Shown: positions 45,983 through 53,135 of the stretch, in pieces
Layout of the letters: each line of letters opens with the position of its first letter
Numbering within the stretch: position 1 is the stretch's first letter
From: an uncultured Pelagibacteraceae bacterium
Lineage (GTDB): Bacteria > Pseudomonadota > Alphaproteobacteria > Pelagibacterales > Pelagibacteraceae
DNA: 64,000 nt
Direction: 5' to 3'
NCBI GenBank assembly: GCA_902588835.1
Contig: CACIQQ010000001.1
Span: 1 to 64,000 of the forward strand
The notes under the pieces: model-generated
The model's database searches: none
Told to the model about the DNA's origin: nothing
Seen by the model: the letters and a program-made list of their open reading frames with translations, nothing else
Translations under genes and position numbers: made by a program

Positions 45983-46795
45983 ATGTTTGATAAAAAAATT
46001 ATGATCATCTTCAGTACTTTAATTAGTTTAATTACTATTTATGTGATTATTTGTTTGGTAATTTTTCTGTCGCAGAGAAAATTATTATATCATCCTAACG
46101 AAAATAACTATTTAGATGAGAACAAACTGACACATAAGATTGAAAAGGTGTTCGTTAAGTCAGATAATAGATTAATTGGTTGGTACCATTTTAAAGACAG
46201 GAAATATAAGACATTACTATTTTTTCATGGGAATGCAGGAAATCTACAAAATAGAATTTACAAATTAAACGAGATAGCTGAACTAGAGTTAAACTATTTA
46301 ATTATTGCTTACAGAGGTTTCAGTGGAAATGAGGGAAAACCAACAGAAGAAGGTTTGTATAATGATTCAATGGCAGCGAAAAGGTGGTTAAATTCAAACA
46401 ACATTGATGATAGCAACATCATTCTTTACGGAGAATCTCTGGGAACAGCTGTTGCAGTGGACCTTGGTTCAAAATTTCCATTTGCAGGAATAATCTTAGA
46501 GTCCCCTTTTACCTCAATGGTAGAACTTTCAAAAATTTATTATCCTTATTTACCAGTGAACTTACTTTTGAAAGATAGATATGACTCCATAAATAAAATT
46601 AGCAAAATAGCTTTTCCTAAACTCGTTATGCACGGAGATAAAGATAACATTGTTCCATTTAGTATGGGAAAAAGAATGTTTGAAAGTTTTTCAGAACCGA
46701 AATTTAGTTATTTTAAGTCAGGCGATGATCACATGATGGATTTTGATCAAGAACTTTTAGGAAATCTAAAAAGTTTTATCAACAAATTAAATTGA
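45983..46795 (+). CDS. alpha/beta hydrolase (BEM46/YfhR-like)
   Basis: LLFFHGNAGNLQNR, AYRGFSGNEGKPTEEGL, ILYGESLGTAVAVDLGSK, VMHGDKDNIVPFSMGK. Confidence 0.92.
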   Translation: MFDKKIMIIFSTLISLITIYVIICLVIFLSQRKLLYHPNENNYLDENKLTHKIEKVFVKSDNRLIGWYHFKDRKYKTLLFFHGNAGNLQNRIYKLNEIAELELNYLIIAYRGFSGNEGKPTEEGLYNDSMAAKRWLNSNNIDDSNIILYGESLGTAVAVDLGSKFPFAGIILESPFTSMVELSKIYYPYLPVNLLLKDRYDSINKISKIAFPKLVMHGDKDNIVPFSMGKRMFESFSEPKFSYFKSGDDHMMDFDQELLGNLKSFINKLN

Positions 46796-47716
46796 TTTTT
46801 CTATATTTAAAAAATTTTCTGCAAATGTTTCAGCATCAAAAGATTGTAAATCGTCCTCTTTTTCCCCAAGACCAATTGCAATTATCGGAAGTTTAAATTT
46901 TTTTGCAGCAGCAATCAGTATTCCCCCTTTTGCAGTTCCATCAAGCTTTGTCATAACAAGACCAGTTAAAGGGATAATATTATTAAATTCTGTTACTTGA
47001 TTTATTACATTTTGTCCTGAGGTTGCATCTAAGATTAGAACAACATCATGAGGCGCATTGCTATCAACTTTTTTAACTACATTTGCAATTTTTTTATACT
47101 CATCCATCAAGTTTTTCTTGTTCTGCAATCTACCAGCTGTATCTATCAAAACTGTATGAATTTTATTTTTTTTTGAATATTCCATTGCCTTAAAAGCTAC
47201 AGACGCAGGATCACTTCCTGCCTCTGATTTTATTATTTCACTTCCAACTTTTTTTGACCAGTTTTCTAATTGATCTATTGCTGCAGCTCTAAATGTGTCA
47301 CAAGCGGCTAGTACTGTTTTATTATTATTATTTTGAAATATTTTAGACATTTTCCCAATTGTGGTTGTTTTTCCTACTCCATTGACACCTGAAACTAAAA
47401 TTGTTCTATTCTCGTTGGATTGATGAAAAAATTTTTTATTTTCTAAAGGTTTCATTAATGAGAGAATATATTCTTTAAGAATTTTGTTAATCTCATCCAG
47501 TTTATTTTTACTTGGATCAATTCTGCTATTAGCTATTTGCTGTCTAATCTCTGATGAAGCCTCAACCCCAACGTCTGATTGAATTAAAAATTCCTCAATT
47601 TCCTCTAAAGTTTTATCGTCAATTTCTTTGTTAACAACAATATCTTTTATACCTTTTGAAAAATTTGATGTAGTTTTTTTTAAGCCATCCTTAAATTTTT
47701 GAAAAATATTAATCAT
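46787..47716 (-). CDS. ftsY: signal recognition particle receptor FtsY
   Basis: LVSGVNGVGKTTTIGKMSK, AACDTFRAAAIDQLENW, DTAGRLQNKKNLMDE, TKLDGTAKGG. Confidence 0.97.
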   Translation of the reverse strand: MINIFQKFKDGLKKTTSNFSKGIKDIVVNKEIDDKTLEEIEEFLIQSDVGVEASSEIRQQIANSRIDPSKNKLDEINKILKEYILSLMKPLENKKFFHQSNENRTILVSGVNGVGKTTTIGKMSKIFQNNNNKTVLAACDTFRAAAIDQLENWSKKVGSEIIKSEAGSDPASVAFKAMEYSKKNKIHTVLIDTAGRLQNKKNLMDEYKKIANVVKKVDSNAPHDVVLILDATSGQNVINQVTEFNNIIPLTGLVMTKLDGTAKGGILIAAAKKFKLPIIAIGLGEKEDDLQSFDAETFAENFLNIEKSI

Positions 47717-48525
47717 ATATTTATATTAATATGCTCAATTTCTGAGACTGAACCTTCCATAATAACGTTTCCTTGTTCATCTTTATTGATTTTAATTTTT
47801 CCTAATTTAAATTCTATTTCAGTTGGAAATTTTGAAATACCATTAATTTCACCAGCTACAGCAGTTGCACATGCTGCAGTTCCACATGCTTTTGTAAGAC
47901 CAGCTCCTCTTTCCCAGTGCAATACTTTAAAATGATTTTTACTTTGCTCTTTTGCAAAGGTAACATTAACTTTTTCAGGAAATAATTCATGATTTTCTAA
48001 GATCGGTCCAACTTTTTTAATTTCGATCTTTTCTAATTCGTTTATAAAAAAAATAATGTGAGGATTTCCAACATTAATTGCTGTTCCTAAAAACTCAATA
48101 TCACCAACCATAACTTTTATTTTTTTTGTATCAATTTTCTCACTTAGAGGTATTTGATCCCAATTAGTTTTTGGTTTTCCAATATTTGTTTGTATCAAAT
48201 TATTTTTTAATATTCTCGACTCTAATTTTCCTGAAGAAGTTTCAACAGTAATAAAGTTTTTTGAACTTTCTTTTGATAACAAGCTTGCTACACATCTAGT
48301 TCCATTTCCGCATGCTGCGGAGTCCGAGCCATCTGAATTTTTAAAGGTAAGAAATGCATCAAATTTATCACTTTTATTTATAAGAATTAGTTGATCACAA
48401 CCAATATTACCTCTGTCACAAATTTTTTTTATTTGAGAATTGTTTAGATCAAATTTTTTTTGACGTTGATCAATTATGACGAAGTCATTTCCAAGTCCAT
48501 CCATTTTATAAGCTTTAAAATCCAT
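47713..48525 (-). CDS. dapF: diaminopimelate epimerase
   Basis: KMDGLGNDFVIID, NSDGSDSAACGNGTRCVA, VGNPHIIFF, ERGAGLTKACGTAACA. Confidence 0.97.
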   Translation of the reverse strand: MDFKAYKMDGLGNDFVIIDQRQKKFDLNNSQIKKICDRGNIGCDQLILINKSDKFDAFLTFKNSDGSDSAACGNGTRCVASLLSKESSKNFITVETSSGKLESRILKNNLIQTNIGKPKTNWDQIPLSEKIDTKKIKVMVGDIEFLGTAINVGNPHIIFFINELEKIEIKKVGPILENHELFPEKVNVTFAKEQSKNHFKVLHWERGAGLTKACGTAACATAVAGEINGISKFPTEIEFKLGKIKINKDEQGNVIMEGSVSEIEHININI

Positions 48526-48582
48526 ATAATAATACTTAACTTATTTATTGACTTTTTGAACCTCTATTATAGTTTCTCACAA

Positions 48583-48682
48583 CTTCCGCAAAAACAGCAT
48601 TTTGCGGTGTCTTTGGAAACAAAGAGATCGACACCAGTCAGCGAGGGTTCGCCCACTGGTGCGATTGCTGCTGGAAGAAATT
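48583..48682 (+). ncRNA. putative structured 5' leader (cis-regulatory RNA candidate) of ffh
   Basis: CCGCAAAA/TTTTGCGG hairpin, CTTTG-GAAA-CAAAG hairpin, CACCAGT..GCGA-GGGT-TCGC..ACTGGTG hairpin, 5' CTTCC complementary to Shine-Dalgarno GGAAG. Confidence 0.65.
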
Positions 48683-50041
48683 ATGTTTGAAAATTTGACA
48701 AATAAATTCGAGGGAATACTCGATACATTTAAAAAGGCGCCATCCCTTAATGAAAAACAGGTTGATGAGGGTCTTAAGCTTATTAGACAAGCTTTACTAG
48801 AAGCAGATGTATCGCTTGAGGTAGTAAAAGACTTTGTAACAAAAGTTAAACCAAAATTATTAGGAAAAGAAATAATAAGATCCACAGCTCCAGGACAAAT
48901 GGTTGTTAAAATTGTTCACGATGAGCTTGTTTCATTTTTAGGGGATAGCAATCAAGAAATTAATTTAAAGTCCAATCCACCGGTAACAATAATGATGGTT
49001 GGTTTACAAGGTTCAGGAAAAACAACCACAACTGCAAAACTCTCAAAATTTTTAGAAAAAAATAATAAGAAAAAAATTATGATGGTAAGTTTAGATATTT
49101 ATAGACCAGCTGCTCAGGAACAACTAAAAATTTTGGGTGATCAAAATAATATCCAAACCTTGCCAGTGATAAAAGATCAAATTCCAGCTGACATTTGCAG
49201 AAGAGCCCTATCTGCAGCTAATTTAAATGGTTCTGATATAATTATTTTTGACACCGCTGGAAGAACTCAAATAGATCTACAGATGATGTCTGAGATAAAA
49301 CAAATTGAAGAAGTAATTAAACCAACAGAGACTATACTTGTTGCAGACTCATTAACTGGACAAGTAGCAGCGAGTGTTGCTAAAGAATTTTCTAACACAG
49401 TAAAGGTTACTGGAATAATATTAACTCGAGCTGACGGTGATGGTAGAGGTGGAGCTGCATTAAGCATGAAACATATTGCTAATGTTCCAATTAAATTTTT
49501 AGGTATTGGAGAAAAAATAGAAAATTTTGAAAGTTTTCATCCTGATAGAATTGCTAACAGAATTTTAGGAATGGGGGATATCGTATCTCTTGTTGAAAAA
49601 GCAGCTGACGAAATTGATGAAGAAAAACTTAAAGAAACTGAGGAGAGTTTAAGGAAAGGTCAGTTTTCTTTAGAAGACTATCTTGCGCAATTAAGACAAA
49701 TGAAAAAAATGGGAGGACTAGAGGGTGTTATGTCTTTTTTACCAGGAGTTTCAAAAATAAAATCTCAAATGGATCAAGCCGGTGTTGATGAAAAAATAAT
49801 TACACAAAATGAAGCGGTAATACTTTCAATGACTAAAAAAGAGAGAGAAAATCCAAAGATTATCGATGGCTCTAGAAAAAAAAGAATTGCTAATGGCTCT
49901 GGAACAGACATTGCCACTATCAATAAATTGTTAAAACAATTTAAAATGATGTCTGACATGATGAAAAAGATGTCAAAAGGAAACACAAAAGGCTTAATGG
50001 AAAAAGGAATTCCACCTGAGCTATTCAATCAACTTAAATAA
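48683..50041 (+). CDS. ffh: signal recognition particle protein Ffh
   Basis: MFENLTNKFEGILD start, MMVGLQGSGKTTTTAKLSK, DIYRPAAQEQL, DTAGRTQIDLQMM, TRADGDGRGGAALS; ORF track overextends upstream to 48602. Confidence 0.97.
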   Translation: MFENLTNKFEGILDTFKKAPSLNEKQVDEGLKLIRQALLEADVSLEVVKDFVTKVKPKLLGKEIIRSTAPGQMVVKIVHDELVSFLGDSNQEINLKSNPPVTIMMVGLQGSGKTTTTAKLSKFLEKNNKKKIMMVSLDIYRPAAQEQLKILGDQNNIQTLPVIKDQIPADICRRALSAANLNGSDIIIFDTAGRTQIDLQMMSEIKQIEEVIKPTETILVADSLTGQVAASVAKEFSNTVKVTGIILTRADGDGRGGAALSMKHIANVPIKFLGIGEKIENFESFHPDRIANRILGMGDIVSLVEKAADEIDEEKLKETEESLRKGQFSLEDYLAQLRQMKKMGGLEGVMSFLPGVSKIKSQMDQAGVDEKIITQNEAVILSMTKKERENPKIIDGSRKKRIANGSGTDIATINKLLKQFKMMSDMMKKMSKGNTKGLMEKGIPPELFNQLK

Positions 50042-50054
50042 AAAGGAGAAATAA

Positions 50055-50480
50055 ATGTTAAAGTTAAGATTATCAATGGGAGGAACAAAAAAGAGACCAG
50101 TTTATAAAATTGTGGTTGCAGACAGTAGATTCCCAAGAGATGGGAGATTTATAGAAAAATTAGGTTTTTTTAATCCCCTTATGCCAAAAGAAAAAAAAGA
50201 AAGAGTTGGACTTCAGTCAGAAAGAATAAAATATTGGCTAAGCCAAGGAGCAAAGCCGACAACTAGAGTTGCTCGATTACTTGGAGAAAATAATTTAATG
50301 GAAATGCCTAAACCAGGAAATAATCCAAATAAAGCTATTCCAAAAAAAGACAGGAAGAAAGACGCTTCTGAAGCTCCAAAAGAGGAAAAGAAAGCAGAGG
50401 CCCCTAAGGAAGAGAAAAAAACTGAAGCACCAAAAGAAGAAAAGAAAGCAGAGACCCCTAAGGAGGAGAAGAAAAAATAA
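50055..50480 (+). CDS. rpsP: 30S ribosomal protein bS16 with repetitive C-terminal tail
   Basis: [41 protein letters not shown]; tail of EAPKEEKKA-type repeats. Confidence 0.97.
50370..50477 (+). repeat. four tandem 27-nt imperfect repeats in 3' end of rpsP
   Basis: Encode [36 protein letters not shown]; units 1/3 and 2/4 most alike. Confidence 0.9.
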
Positions 50481-50482
50481 CT

Positions 50483-51169
50483 ATGTTTCAGGCGAAAATT
50501 TTTACTTTGTATCCTGAATATTTTCCAGGACCCTTTGATATAGGTATTTGCAAAAAAGCTTTTGAAAAAAAACTTTGGGATTTAAAACTTATTAATATTA
50601 GGGATTATGCAGATGATAAACATAAAACTGTTGACGATACTCCATATGGTGGTGGCGTAGGTATGTTAATGAGACCAGACGTAGTAGCAAAATCTTTGGA
50701 CGCAAATTTGGATGAAAAAGAAACAGTTTATTATCTTACACCTAAGGGTAAAATTTTTAATCAAGATATTGCAAAGGATATTGTTAAAAAAAACAAAGTA
50801 AATATTTTATGTGGGCACTTTGAGGGAGTCGATCAACGAGTTTTAGACTCAAGAAATGTAGAGGAGATAAGTATAGGTGACTTTATCCTTTCCGGAGGAG
50901 AGATGGCTTCTTTCGTTGTTTTAGATACGATTTTAAGATTAGTGCCTGGAGTATTAGGAAATTTAAATTCTACAAAAGATGAAAGTTTTGAAAATGGGCT
51001 TTTGGAGTATCCACAATATACCAAACCTCAAATATGGGAGAAATTAAGTGTTCCTGACATACTTTTATCCGGAGATCATAATAAAATTAAAAGCTGGCGT
51101 TTATCCCAATCTGAGGCTATAACACGGCACCGAAGACCAGATTTATGGCAAAAATATAAAAAGGATTAA
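50483..51169 (+). CDS. trmD: tRNA (guanine-N1)-methyltransferase
   Basis: [58 protein letters not shown]. Confidence 0.97.
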
Positions 51170-51186
51170 AATTGCAAAATTTAAAC

Positions 51187-51720
51187 ATGAAAAATATAGA
51201 AGACATAAATAAAGCTAACGTTAAAAAAATTTCAGCTGAAAAAAAACTTCCAGAGTTTTTTCCAGGAGATATCATAAAAGTTGGTGTAAAAATTACTGAA
51301 GGAAAAAGAGATAGAATTCAGTATTTTGAAGGTGTTTGCATAGCAAAAAAAAATAGGGACTTAAATTCATCTTTTACAGTTAGAAAAATTTCTTTCGGAG
51401 AAGGTGTTGAAAGAACTTTTGCTCTTTATAGTCCAATAGTTGATACAATCAAAGTTATAAGATCTGGTAAAGTAAGACGTGCAAAATTATACTATCTAAG
51501 AGAAAGAACCGGTAAATCAGCAAGAATTGCAGAAAAGATAAAAAAGAAAATTGGAATTGATGTTGAGGCCAAACCTGAGCAGGTTACAGAAGAAAATGTG
51601 TTACCAGCAACTGAACAAAAGAATACTGAGGAAAAAGCCGAGACAAAAGTCGCTGAGACACCCAAAAAACTTGAAGAGAAAAAAGAAGATAGTAAGATTT
51701 CTACTGAATTAAAAAAATAA
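51187..51720 (+). CDS. rplS: 50S ribosomal protein bL19 with E/K-rich C-terminal tail
   Basis: [58 protein letters not shown] at 51187 preferred over TTG at 51172. Confidence 0.95.
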
Positions 51721-51731
51721 TCTTTTTTTAA

Positions 51732-53135
51732 ATGCCAAAGACTTTATACGATAAAATCTGGAGTGATCACTTAGTCCACCAACAGGATGATGGAACATCT
51801 TTGCTATTTGTGGATAGACATTTGATACATGAGGTGACTAGCCCACAAGCTTTTGAAGGACTTAGAAATAGTAAAAGGAATGTAAGACATCCAAACTTAA
51901 CTCTTGCTGTTGTTGATCACAACATACCTACAACTGACAGATCTAAAGGAATTGATGACAACGACTCTAGAATTCAAGTAGAAACACTTGAAAAAAATTG
52001 CAAAGACTTTGACATCAAACTTTTTGGAATGAATGATAAAAGACAAGGAATAGTTCATATAGTAGGACCCGAGCAAGGATTTACTCAACCAGGAACAGTT
52101 ATTGTTTGTGGAGACAGTCACACGGCAACTCATGGTGCTTTTGGGGCTTTAGCGTTTGGAATAGGAACCTCAGAGGTTGAGCACGTTTTAGCAACACAAA
52201 CTCTTGTTCAGAAAAAAGCAAAAAATTTTAGAATTAATGTTAATGGAAAACTTCCTTTAGGAGTAACATCTAAAGATGTAATTCTTCAAATCATTGGCAA
52301 AATAGGGACTGCTGGAGGAACAGGATGTGTGTTAGAATATGCTGGTTCAGTCATATCAAATCTTTCTGTCGAACAGAGAATGACCATTTGTAATATGTCT
52401 ATAGAAGGTGGAGCTAGAGCAGGATTAATCCAACCTGATGAAAAGATTTTTAATTATCTAAAAGATAGACCAATGTCTCCAAAAAAAGAAAACTGGGAAA
52501 AAGCAATTGATTATTGGAGTAAATTAAAAAGTGATAGCGATGCAAAATTTGATAAAGAAATTAATTTAAAAGGCGATGAAATAGCGCCTATGGTTACATG
52601 GGGAACTTCACCTGAGGACGTAGTTTCAATTAATGGAAAAATCCCTAATCCAGAAAATGAAAAAAATATTGATAAAAAGAATTCGATAAATAGATCTCTT
52701 AATTATATGGGTCTTAAACCTGATGTGAAAGTACAAGACATTAAAATTGATAAAGTTTTTATAGGAAGTTGTACGAATGGAAGAATCGAGGACTTAAGAG
52801 AGGCTGCACAAATATTAAAAAATAAGAAAAAGGCTTCTCATGTACATGGAATGGTCGTCCCTGGTTCTGGTTTAGTTAAAGAACAAGCTGAGCAAGAAGG
52901 TCTAGATAAAATATTTATAGAGTCCGGTTTTGAATGGAGAGAACCTGGATGTTCAATGTGTTTAGCAATGAATGCCGATAAATTAAAACCTCAAGAAAGA
53001 TGTGCATCCACTTCGAATAGAAACTTTGAAGGAAGACAGGGAAGAGGAGGAAGAACCCACTTAGTAAGCCCAGGTATGGCAGCTGCTGCAGCTATTGCTG
53101 GAAATCTAGATGATGTTAGAAAATATCAAAACTAA
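51732..53135 (+). CDS. leuC: 3-isopropylmalate dehydratase large subunit
   Basis: [78 protein letters not shown]. Confidence 0.97.

Follow-up and report, generated by a model that had tools for sequence, protein, structure and literature searches.

An ffh leader RNA of family RF01793 in SAR11 bacteria, with additional helices and a possible two-state switch

The ffh leader and its RNA family

The leader, 48583-48682, lies between the divergent genes dapF (47713-48525, - strand) and ffh (+ strand) in the window, the 64,000-nucleotide stretch of Pelagibacteraceae DNA that was analysed (Table 1). In SAR11, rpsP, trmD and rplS were found downstream of ffh on the same strand at 61/61, 59/59 and 56/56 testable loci. 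At 50041-51732 of the window, ffh, rpsP, trmD, rplS and an aconitase-family (leuC-like) gene follow one another with gaps of at most 14 nt. The usual order is rpsP-rimM-trmD-rplS; here rimM is absent between rpsP and trmD, and the S16 protein (50055-50480, + strand) has a long C-terminal tail of repeated segments past its Pfam domain. On the other side of the leader, dapF adjoins a gene for an FtsY-like protein, the SRP receptor (46787-47716, - strand), which has SRP54 and SRP54_N domains without SRP_SPB. This gene is on the strand opposite to ffh, so that the region has a gene for an SRP protein on either side.

Table 1. Coordinates of the ffh leader, its promoter elements and predicted helices in the window
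Feature	Position	Strand	Description and basis
-35 box TTGACT	48548-48553	+	sequence; TTGAC conserved in SAR11 clusters
-10 box TAGTTT	48570-48575	+	alternative to the earlier TATAGT; conserved spacing
P0 5' strand CUUCC	48583-48587	+	predicted transcript 5' end; would pair with 48673-48677 in the closed fold; 5'-terminal 6-10 nt co-evolve with the RBS region
P1 hairpin CCGCAAAA...UUUUGCGG	48586-48607	+	predicted open fold; 98.9% of cells paired; strand permutation
P2	48605-48630	+	lower CGGU/AUCG plus upper stem; GNRA loop 48616-48619
Upper P2	UCUUUG 48610-48615 / CAAAGA 48620-48625	+	6/6 pairs covary in SAR11
P3, the published hairpin	48632-48661	+	11/12 pairs covary (70 alphaproteobacterial sequences)
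Conserved 3' tail	48665-48674	+	U at P3+4; YUGG-like at P3+10 to +13 (here CUGG 48671-48674)
ffh Shine-Dalgarno-like GGAAG, P0 3' strand	48673-48677	+	sequence; co-evolution with the 5' end
ffh (SRP54)	48683-50041	+	Pfam SRP54, SRP54_N, SRP_SPB; ATG 48683; heads ffh-rpsP-trmD-rplS

The original prediction had placed a promoter upstream of the leader. Its -35 box stands, while its -10 box, TATAGT at a spacing of 14 nt, does not have the conserved spacing; TAGTTT, 16 nt from the -35 box, fits better. The arrangement TTGAC(T), 16-17 nt and TANNTT was present in 63/64 SAR11 clusters, counted over those with both boxes found, and the first hairpin of the leader, P1, starts 10-11 nt past the -10 box in 58/64. 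From the conserved position and spacing of the -10 box, the predicted transcription start would lie at about 48581-48583, which places it two to five nt upstream of P1. The possibility was also considered that the region encodes an N-terminal extension of Ffh, with an open frame from TTG 48602. This was rejected on the out-of-frame leader spacing among relatives and the covarying stems.

A scan against the whole of Rfam matched family RF01793 (ffh) at 48617-48669 (+ strand) with 58.3 bits (gathering threshold 35, E 1.6e-8). The match is the sole copy in this genome, and the genomes with a listed match carry one copy each. The features of the family were all found here, namely the score, the hairpin with the conserved cytosines of its internal loop (CA/CC at 48639-48640 / 48653-48654) and the position directly upstream of ffh on the same strand, the latter being shared by 136/139 RF01793 loci. 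The element is the ffh leader RNA of family RF01793; it is already known and is not new. The catalogued marine ffh-associated motif that the original prediction had mentioned is this family, and the novelty that it had left to be checked is gone with the Rfam match. Its reading of the segment as a structured cis leader of ffh is upheld.

The ffh motif was discovered by Meyer et al. 2009 in this very intergenic region of 'Candidatus Pelagibacter ubique' and depicted as one bulged hairpin (PMC2704228). It was reported from Rhodobacterales, Sphingomonadales and Rhizobiales and not from Caulobacterales, Rhodospirillales or other Rickettsiales, and it was proposed that it may regulate ffh, a gene whose regulation, transcriptional or translational, was undescribed at the time (PMC2704228). 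The motif is visible as a small-RNA signal in metatranscriptomes, as cited in PMC2704228. In the literature searched, later papers go no further than listing the ffh RNA among leaders or small RNAs that are expressed or predicted (PMC7717549, PMC5596092, PMC2573895): the expressed sRNAs of Bartonella include an 'ffH leader RNA' (PMC7717549), and a small RNA was predicted in the dapF-ffh gap of S. meliloti (PMC2573895). No published function for the ffh leader RNA was found in the literature searched. Rfam types RF01793 as 'Gene; sRNA', yet the family sits in the genome as a cis leader does; its consensus leaves P2 unpaired, and the model ends short of the end of the conserved tail.

As originally noted, the leader lacks the canonical domain IV sequence of SRP RNA. 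The Rfam scan gave no RF00169 match in the leader or elsewhere in the window, and an SRP RNA mimic was accordingly rejected. What the leader shares with bacterial SRP RNA (RF00169) is a link to Ffh: SRP RNA is the partner of the protein, and the leader is tied to its gene. The SRP RNA of this genome lies elsewhere (G000:C6:41188-41281, locus L002); its score of 37.6 bits is just under the Rfam cut-off of 40, and automatic annotation could miss it.

Helices of the leader and their range

The segment 48580-48700 was predicted to fold with -38.2 kcal/mol, compared with -28.4 +/- 3.6 kcal/mol for shuffled sequences (z -2.7; 0/200 as low). Base-by-base reading confirmed the predicted first stem, CCGCAAAA at 48586-48593 with TTTTGCGG at 48600-48607, and the predicted pairing of CACCAGT (48632-48638) with ACTGGTG (48655-48661) around GCGA-GGGT-TCGC. 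The GNRA hairpin CTTTG-GAAA-CAAAG (48611-48624) is also present; its length had been understated, as it is one pair longer (T48610-A48625). Leaders of ffh were then gathered from SAR11 and other Alphaproteobacteria, and 78 distinct SAR11 leaders were aligned. In these, P1, P2 and P3 together were paired in 99.6% of cells, compared with 95.5% for shuffled partners and 38-49% for slid partners. The compensatory changes that the original prediction had called for were present, with 10 covarying pairs across the three helices: two-sided changes affect all six upper P2 pairs, two pairs of P1 and two of P3.

Permutation of the 5' and 3' strands of P1 gave z -5.8 at 85% clusters. Outside SAR11, P2 is supported by partner swaps between 61 alphaproteobacterial species (z -9.2), and its stems are diverse, including CGGUC-CGAG-GAUCG, GCGCC-CGAG-GGCGC and CACUC-CAAG-GAGUG. 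In many of these leaders the 3' strand of P2 stops one nt before P3. Within P3, the C48639.C48654 mismatch is conserved, and the neighbouring position A48640/C48653 is A.C, C-G, G-U, G-C or U-A in relatives. The internal loop of the literature (CA/CC) reduces to one conserved C.C mismatch beside a variable position. A P3-type hairpin with two C was present in 217/218 leaders, a count in which the finder required both C. An extension of P3, AUCG/CGAU, was rejected, having no covariation and 89% of cells paired, even though the open fold is predicted to contain it.

The tail that follows P3 is conserved as well. In 76 non-redundant non-SAR11 leaders, positions +4, +10 and +11 hold 1.3-1.5 bits, and the distance of the tail from P3 is fixed though ffh starts 17-292 nt after P3 in non-SAR11 species. 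The tail extends partly beyond the Rfam model and in SAR11 coincides with the RBS. A pairing between the P2 loop and the tail was considered for non-SAR11 leaders and rejected, as z values of -1.4 to -2.0 were too weak after several tests.

The sequence comparisons show the published hairpin, P3, to be one of at least three helices, with P2 and P3 family-wide and P1 found in SAR11. The present element and the RF01793 motif of Meyer et al. 2009 (PMC2704228) have in common the gene, the hairpin with the internal-loop cytosines and the organism group. The paper and Rfam draw one bulged hairpin, whereas P2, P1 in SAR11, the YUGG tail and the predicted RBS pairing are added here.

P3 and the tail, taken from 70 sequences, were used to build a covariance model, R1, whose hits were accepted at E <= 0.001. 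It found the RNA in 253/389 alphaproteobacterial genomes, compared with 112/389 for RF01793 in the same draw and at the same threshold. Fifty R1 hits in genomes missed by RF01793 (20 strong, 30 weak) were checked regardless of context, and 47 of them lie on the same strand as ffh and within about 130 nt upstream of it. Weak R1 matches at L334, L347 and L348 (1501-1550) have no detectable ffh nearby, and are either false hits or copies that have been displaced. When genomes were drawn from the whole phylum, 92 of the 93 with an R1 hit belonged to Alphaproteobacteria, the other hit being weak (E 1.6e-4). The RNA is widespread in Alphaproteobacteria and confined to the class in the genomes sampled. 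Among the SAR11-family genomes, 42/297 have no RF01793 match, several of them being more than 90% complete; loss, divergence or assembly gaps are possible.

Helices that compete with P1, and a probable pairing of the 5' end with the RBS

The original prediction had proposed that a helix GGTGTC (48606-48611) / GACACC (48630-48635) competes with the first and third stems. The letters are there, but the helix shows 0 two-sided changes and 12 + 11 broken cells, and was abandoned. The proposed pseudoknot between the P1 loop and TGCTG did not fare better: it was paired in 74% of cells, came out as borderline in no more than a single shuffle control and had a permutation z of about 0.

RNAalifold proposed a different helix, CGGU 48605-48608 / AUCG 48627-48630, which forms the lower part of P2. 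It was paired in 312/312 cells. The pair C48605-G48630 is replaced by U-A in 11/78 SAR11 leaders and the P1 pair G48588-C48605 by A-U in 10/78. The leaders that carry these two-sided changes belong to a small number of related SAR11 genera, and the changes may represent few independent events. C48605 belongs to both helices and both covary, so that one nucleotide appears to keep two partners. The covariation supports lower P2, CGGU/AUCG, which shares nucleotides with P1, as the true competitor of P1. U-G and U-A also occur at the lower-P2 pair in another group of Alphaproteobacteria (L144, L147, L150, L153), and in other Alphaproteobacteria lower P2 is often within a continuous P2, for example CGGUCCC...GGGAUCG. 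Exceptions were found in L233 and L237, where C48605-G48630 is broken, and in L238, where P1 is broken.

The other pairing of interest, P0, joins the predicted transcript 5' end to the Shine-Dalgarno-like sequence of ffh. It had been predicted as CTTCC with GGAAG. These sequences are present, but the fixed register failed, with 72% of cells paired and zero covarying pairs in the 78 SAR11 leaders; support in SAR11 comes when the register is allowed to slide. Altered 5' ends fit the altered RBS in a shifted register, as in AUUCC/GGAAU (L206, L005, L258), CGCAC/GUGCG (L054) and others. RBS regions were swapped between SAR11 leaders and the duplex energies were compared, using 10-nt and 16-nt segments picked after the sequences had been seen: the own duplex had -4.38 kcal/mol and that with swapped partners -3.43 kcal/mol. 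The z value was -5.6 for 67 clusters at 95% Ffh identity, -3.9 for 41 at 90% and -3.0 for 27 at 85%; the signal was weaker at coarse clustering (z -1.5, p 0.07, for 14 clusters at 80%; z -1.4 for 8 at 75%). P1, which served as the positive control, gave z -9.1 to -2.4, and the negative controls, reversed tails and coding windows, gave no signal. Furthermore, 116 control windows were taken from these genomes and so share their relatedness; none was as extreme (real value -4.26, control minimum -3.21). The signal is confined to the last 6-9 nt of the 5'-end segment, which would belong to the transcript provided that the predicted start is correct, and is absent in the preceding 10 nt.

Taken with the post hoc choice of segments, these data provide moderate evidence that in SAR11 the transcript 5' end co-evolves with the RBS region without one fixed register. 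P0 is missing by prediction in several SAR11 leaders. In other Alphaproteobacteria the permutation test gave nothing clear for a pairing of the 5' end with the RBS, and P0 would for that reason be at most a SAR11 output. Of the original reading as a whole, the place and likely role of the leader and, in substance, the RBS pairing survived; the competing helix and the pseudoknot did not.

A two-fold model of the leader and its alternatives

P1 needs CC 48586-48587, which is also part of P0, and CGG 48605-48607, which is also part of lower P2. We infer from this overlap that the SAR11 leader has two exclusive folds, one open and one closed. In the open fold, P1, a short P2 and P3 would leave the RBS free, and this fold would be the first to form during transcription. 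In the closed fold, P0, the full P2 and P3 would make a closed junction that hides the RBS, and this fold would be slightly favoured once the RBS is synthesised. With the predicted start, the leader in the window folds with -38.4 kcal/mol open and -39.5 kcal/mol closed, and over the 78 SAR11 leaders the mean difference is 0.2 kcal/mol, energy gaps of about 1 kcal/mol being within the error of the method. When folding of the growing transcript was predicted, the open fold was obtained at nearly every length until about 48676 (GGAAG) was made, and the closed fold afterwards.

The leader would act in cis as a 5' untranslated element, beginning at the transcript's 5' end, through which translation of ffh is controlled, perhaps together with that of the other genes on the ffh-rpsP-trmD-rplS transcript. 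A factor that binds the class-wide core of P2, P3 and tail (GAUCG linker, C.C mismatch, YUGG tail) may favour the closed fold; in excess, it would shift the leader to that fold and shut off ffh. The core would then be the putative binding site, and P0 and P1 the output part in SAR11. As the leader heads ffh-rpsP-trmD-rplS, the Ffh protein, SRP, S16 and L19 are all candidates for the factor; Ffh or SRP is the first guess and an operon ribosomal protein (S16, L19) the second. The leader may work like ribosomal-protein autoregulatory leaders such as the rpsB and rpsL motifs (PMC2704228), as 5' hairpins of a translation-apparatus operon that could hide the RBS when a product is in excess; this is a likeness, and membership among these leaders is not claimed. 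An ffh leader RNA with a switch between a P1-containing open fold and an RBS-hiding closed fold that controls ffh is considered the best explanation, with a probability of roughly 0.55. The fuller proposal is more tentative and has somewhat less than an even chance of being right. It holds that a class-wide alphaproteobacterial regulator with a P2-P3-tail core has in SAR11 a minimal output, in which about the first 5 nt serve as both P1 strand and anti-Shine-Dalgarno, giving ffh/SRP feedback by a switch of about 100 nt.

Other explanations were weighed against the switch. It is rather unlikely that the leader is that of a ribosomal protein, with S16 or L19 from the same transcript binding it and repressing the operon and Ffh being merely the first gene. 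The constant presence of rpsP, trmD and rplS after ffh in SAR11 and the short gaps in the window agree with such a role, and a ribosomal protein is the ligand of many known leaders that bind proteins in operons of this kind. Also unlikely is a structured 5' end that does not switch, its hairpins serving to protect the mRNA or to insulate the RBS; the overlap between helices would then reflect frayed ends of neighbouring stems. Near-equal energies would make breathing of P1 and lower P2 unavoidable, and P0 is not universal in SAR11, but the conserved C.C mismatch, the linker and the fixed-distance tail exceed what stem stability needs, as does the co-evolution of the 5' end with the RBS.

A trans-acting small RNA, processed from the leader or ended within it, appears quite improbable. 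In its favour are the sRNA type in Rfam, the metatranscriptome signal as cited in PMC2704228, the expressed 'ffH leader RNA' of Bartonella (PMC7717549) and the S. meliloti dapF-ffh prediction (PMC2573895). Against it, the element is tied to ffh on the same strand at 136/139 RF01793 loci and 47/50 of the checked R1 loci, where occasional relocation or duplication would be expected of a free sRNA gene. A small-molecule riboswitch is very improbable: a core plus a variable output part is riboswitch-like, but the RNA is associated with the single gene ffh and no metabolic gene, and it has a small core in which few loop bases are conserved.

The analysis adds to the known family by correcting its architecture, widening its range and proposing a two-state model that can be tested. 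If the switch model is true, the leader would allow SRP feedback to be tested directly in bacteria that are among the most abundant in the sea, and the corrected model, with P2, the tail and the wider range, would show this control to be a trait of most Alphaproteobacteria and not of a few orders.
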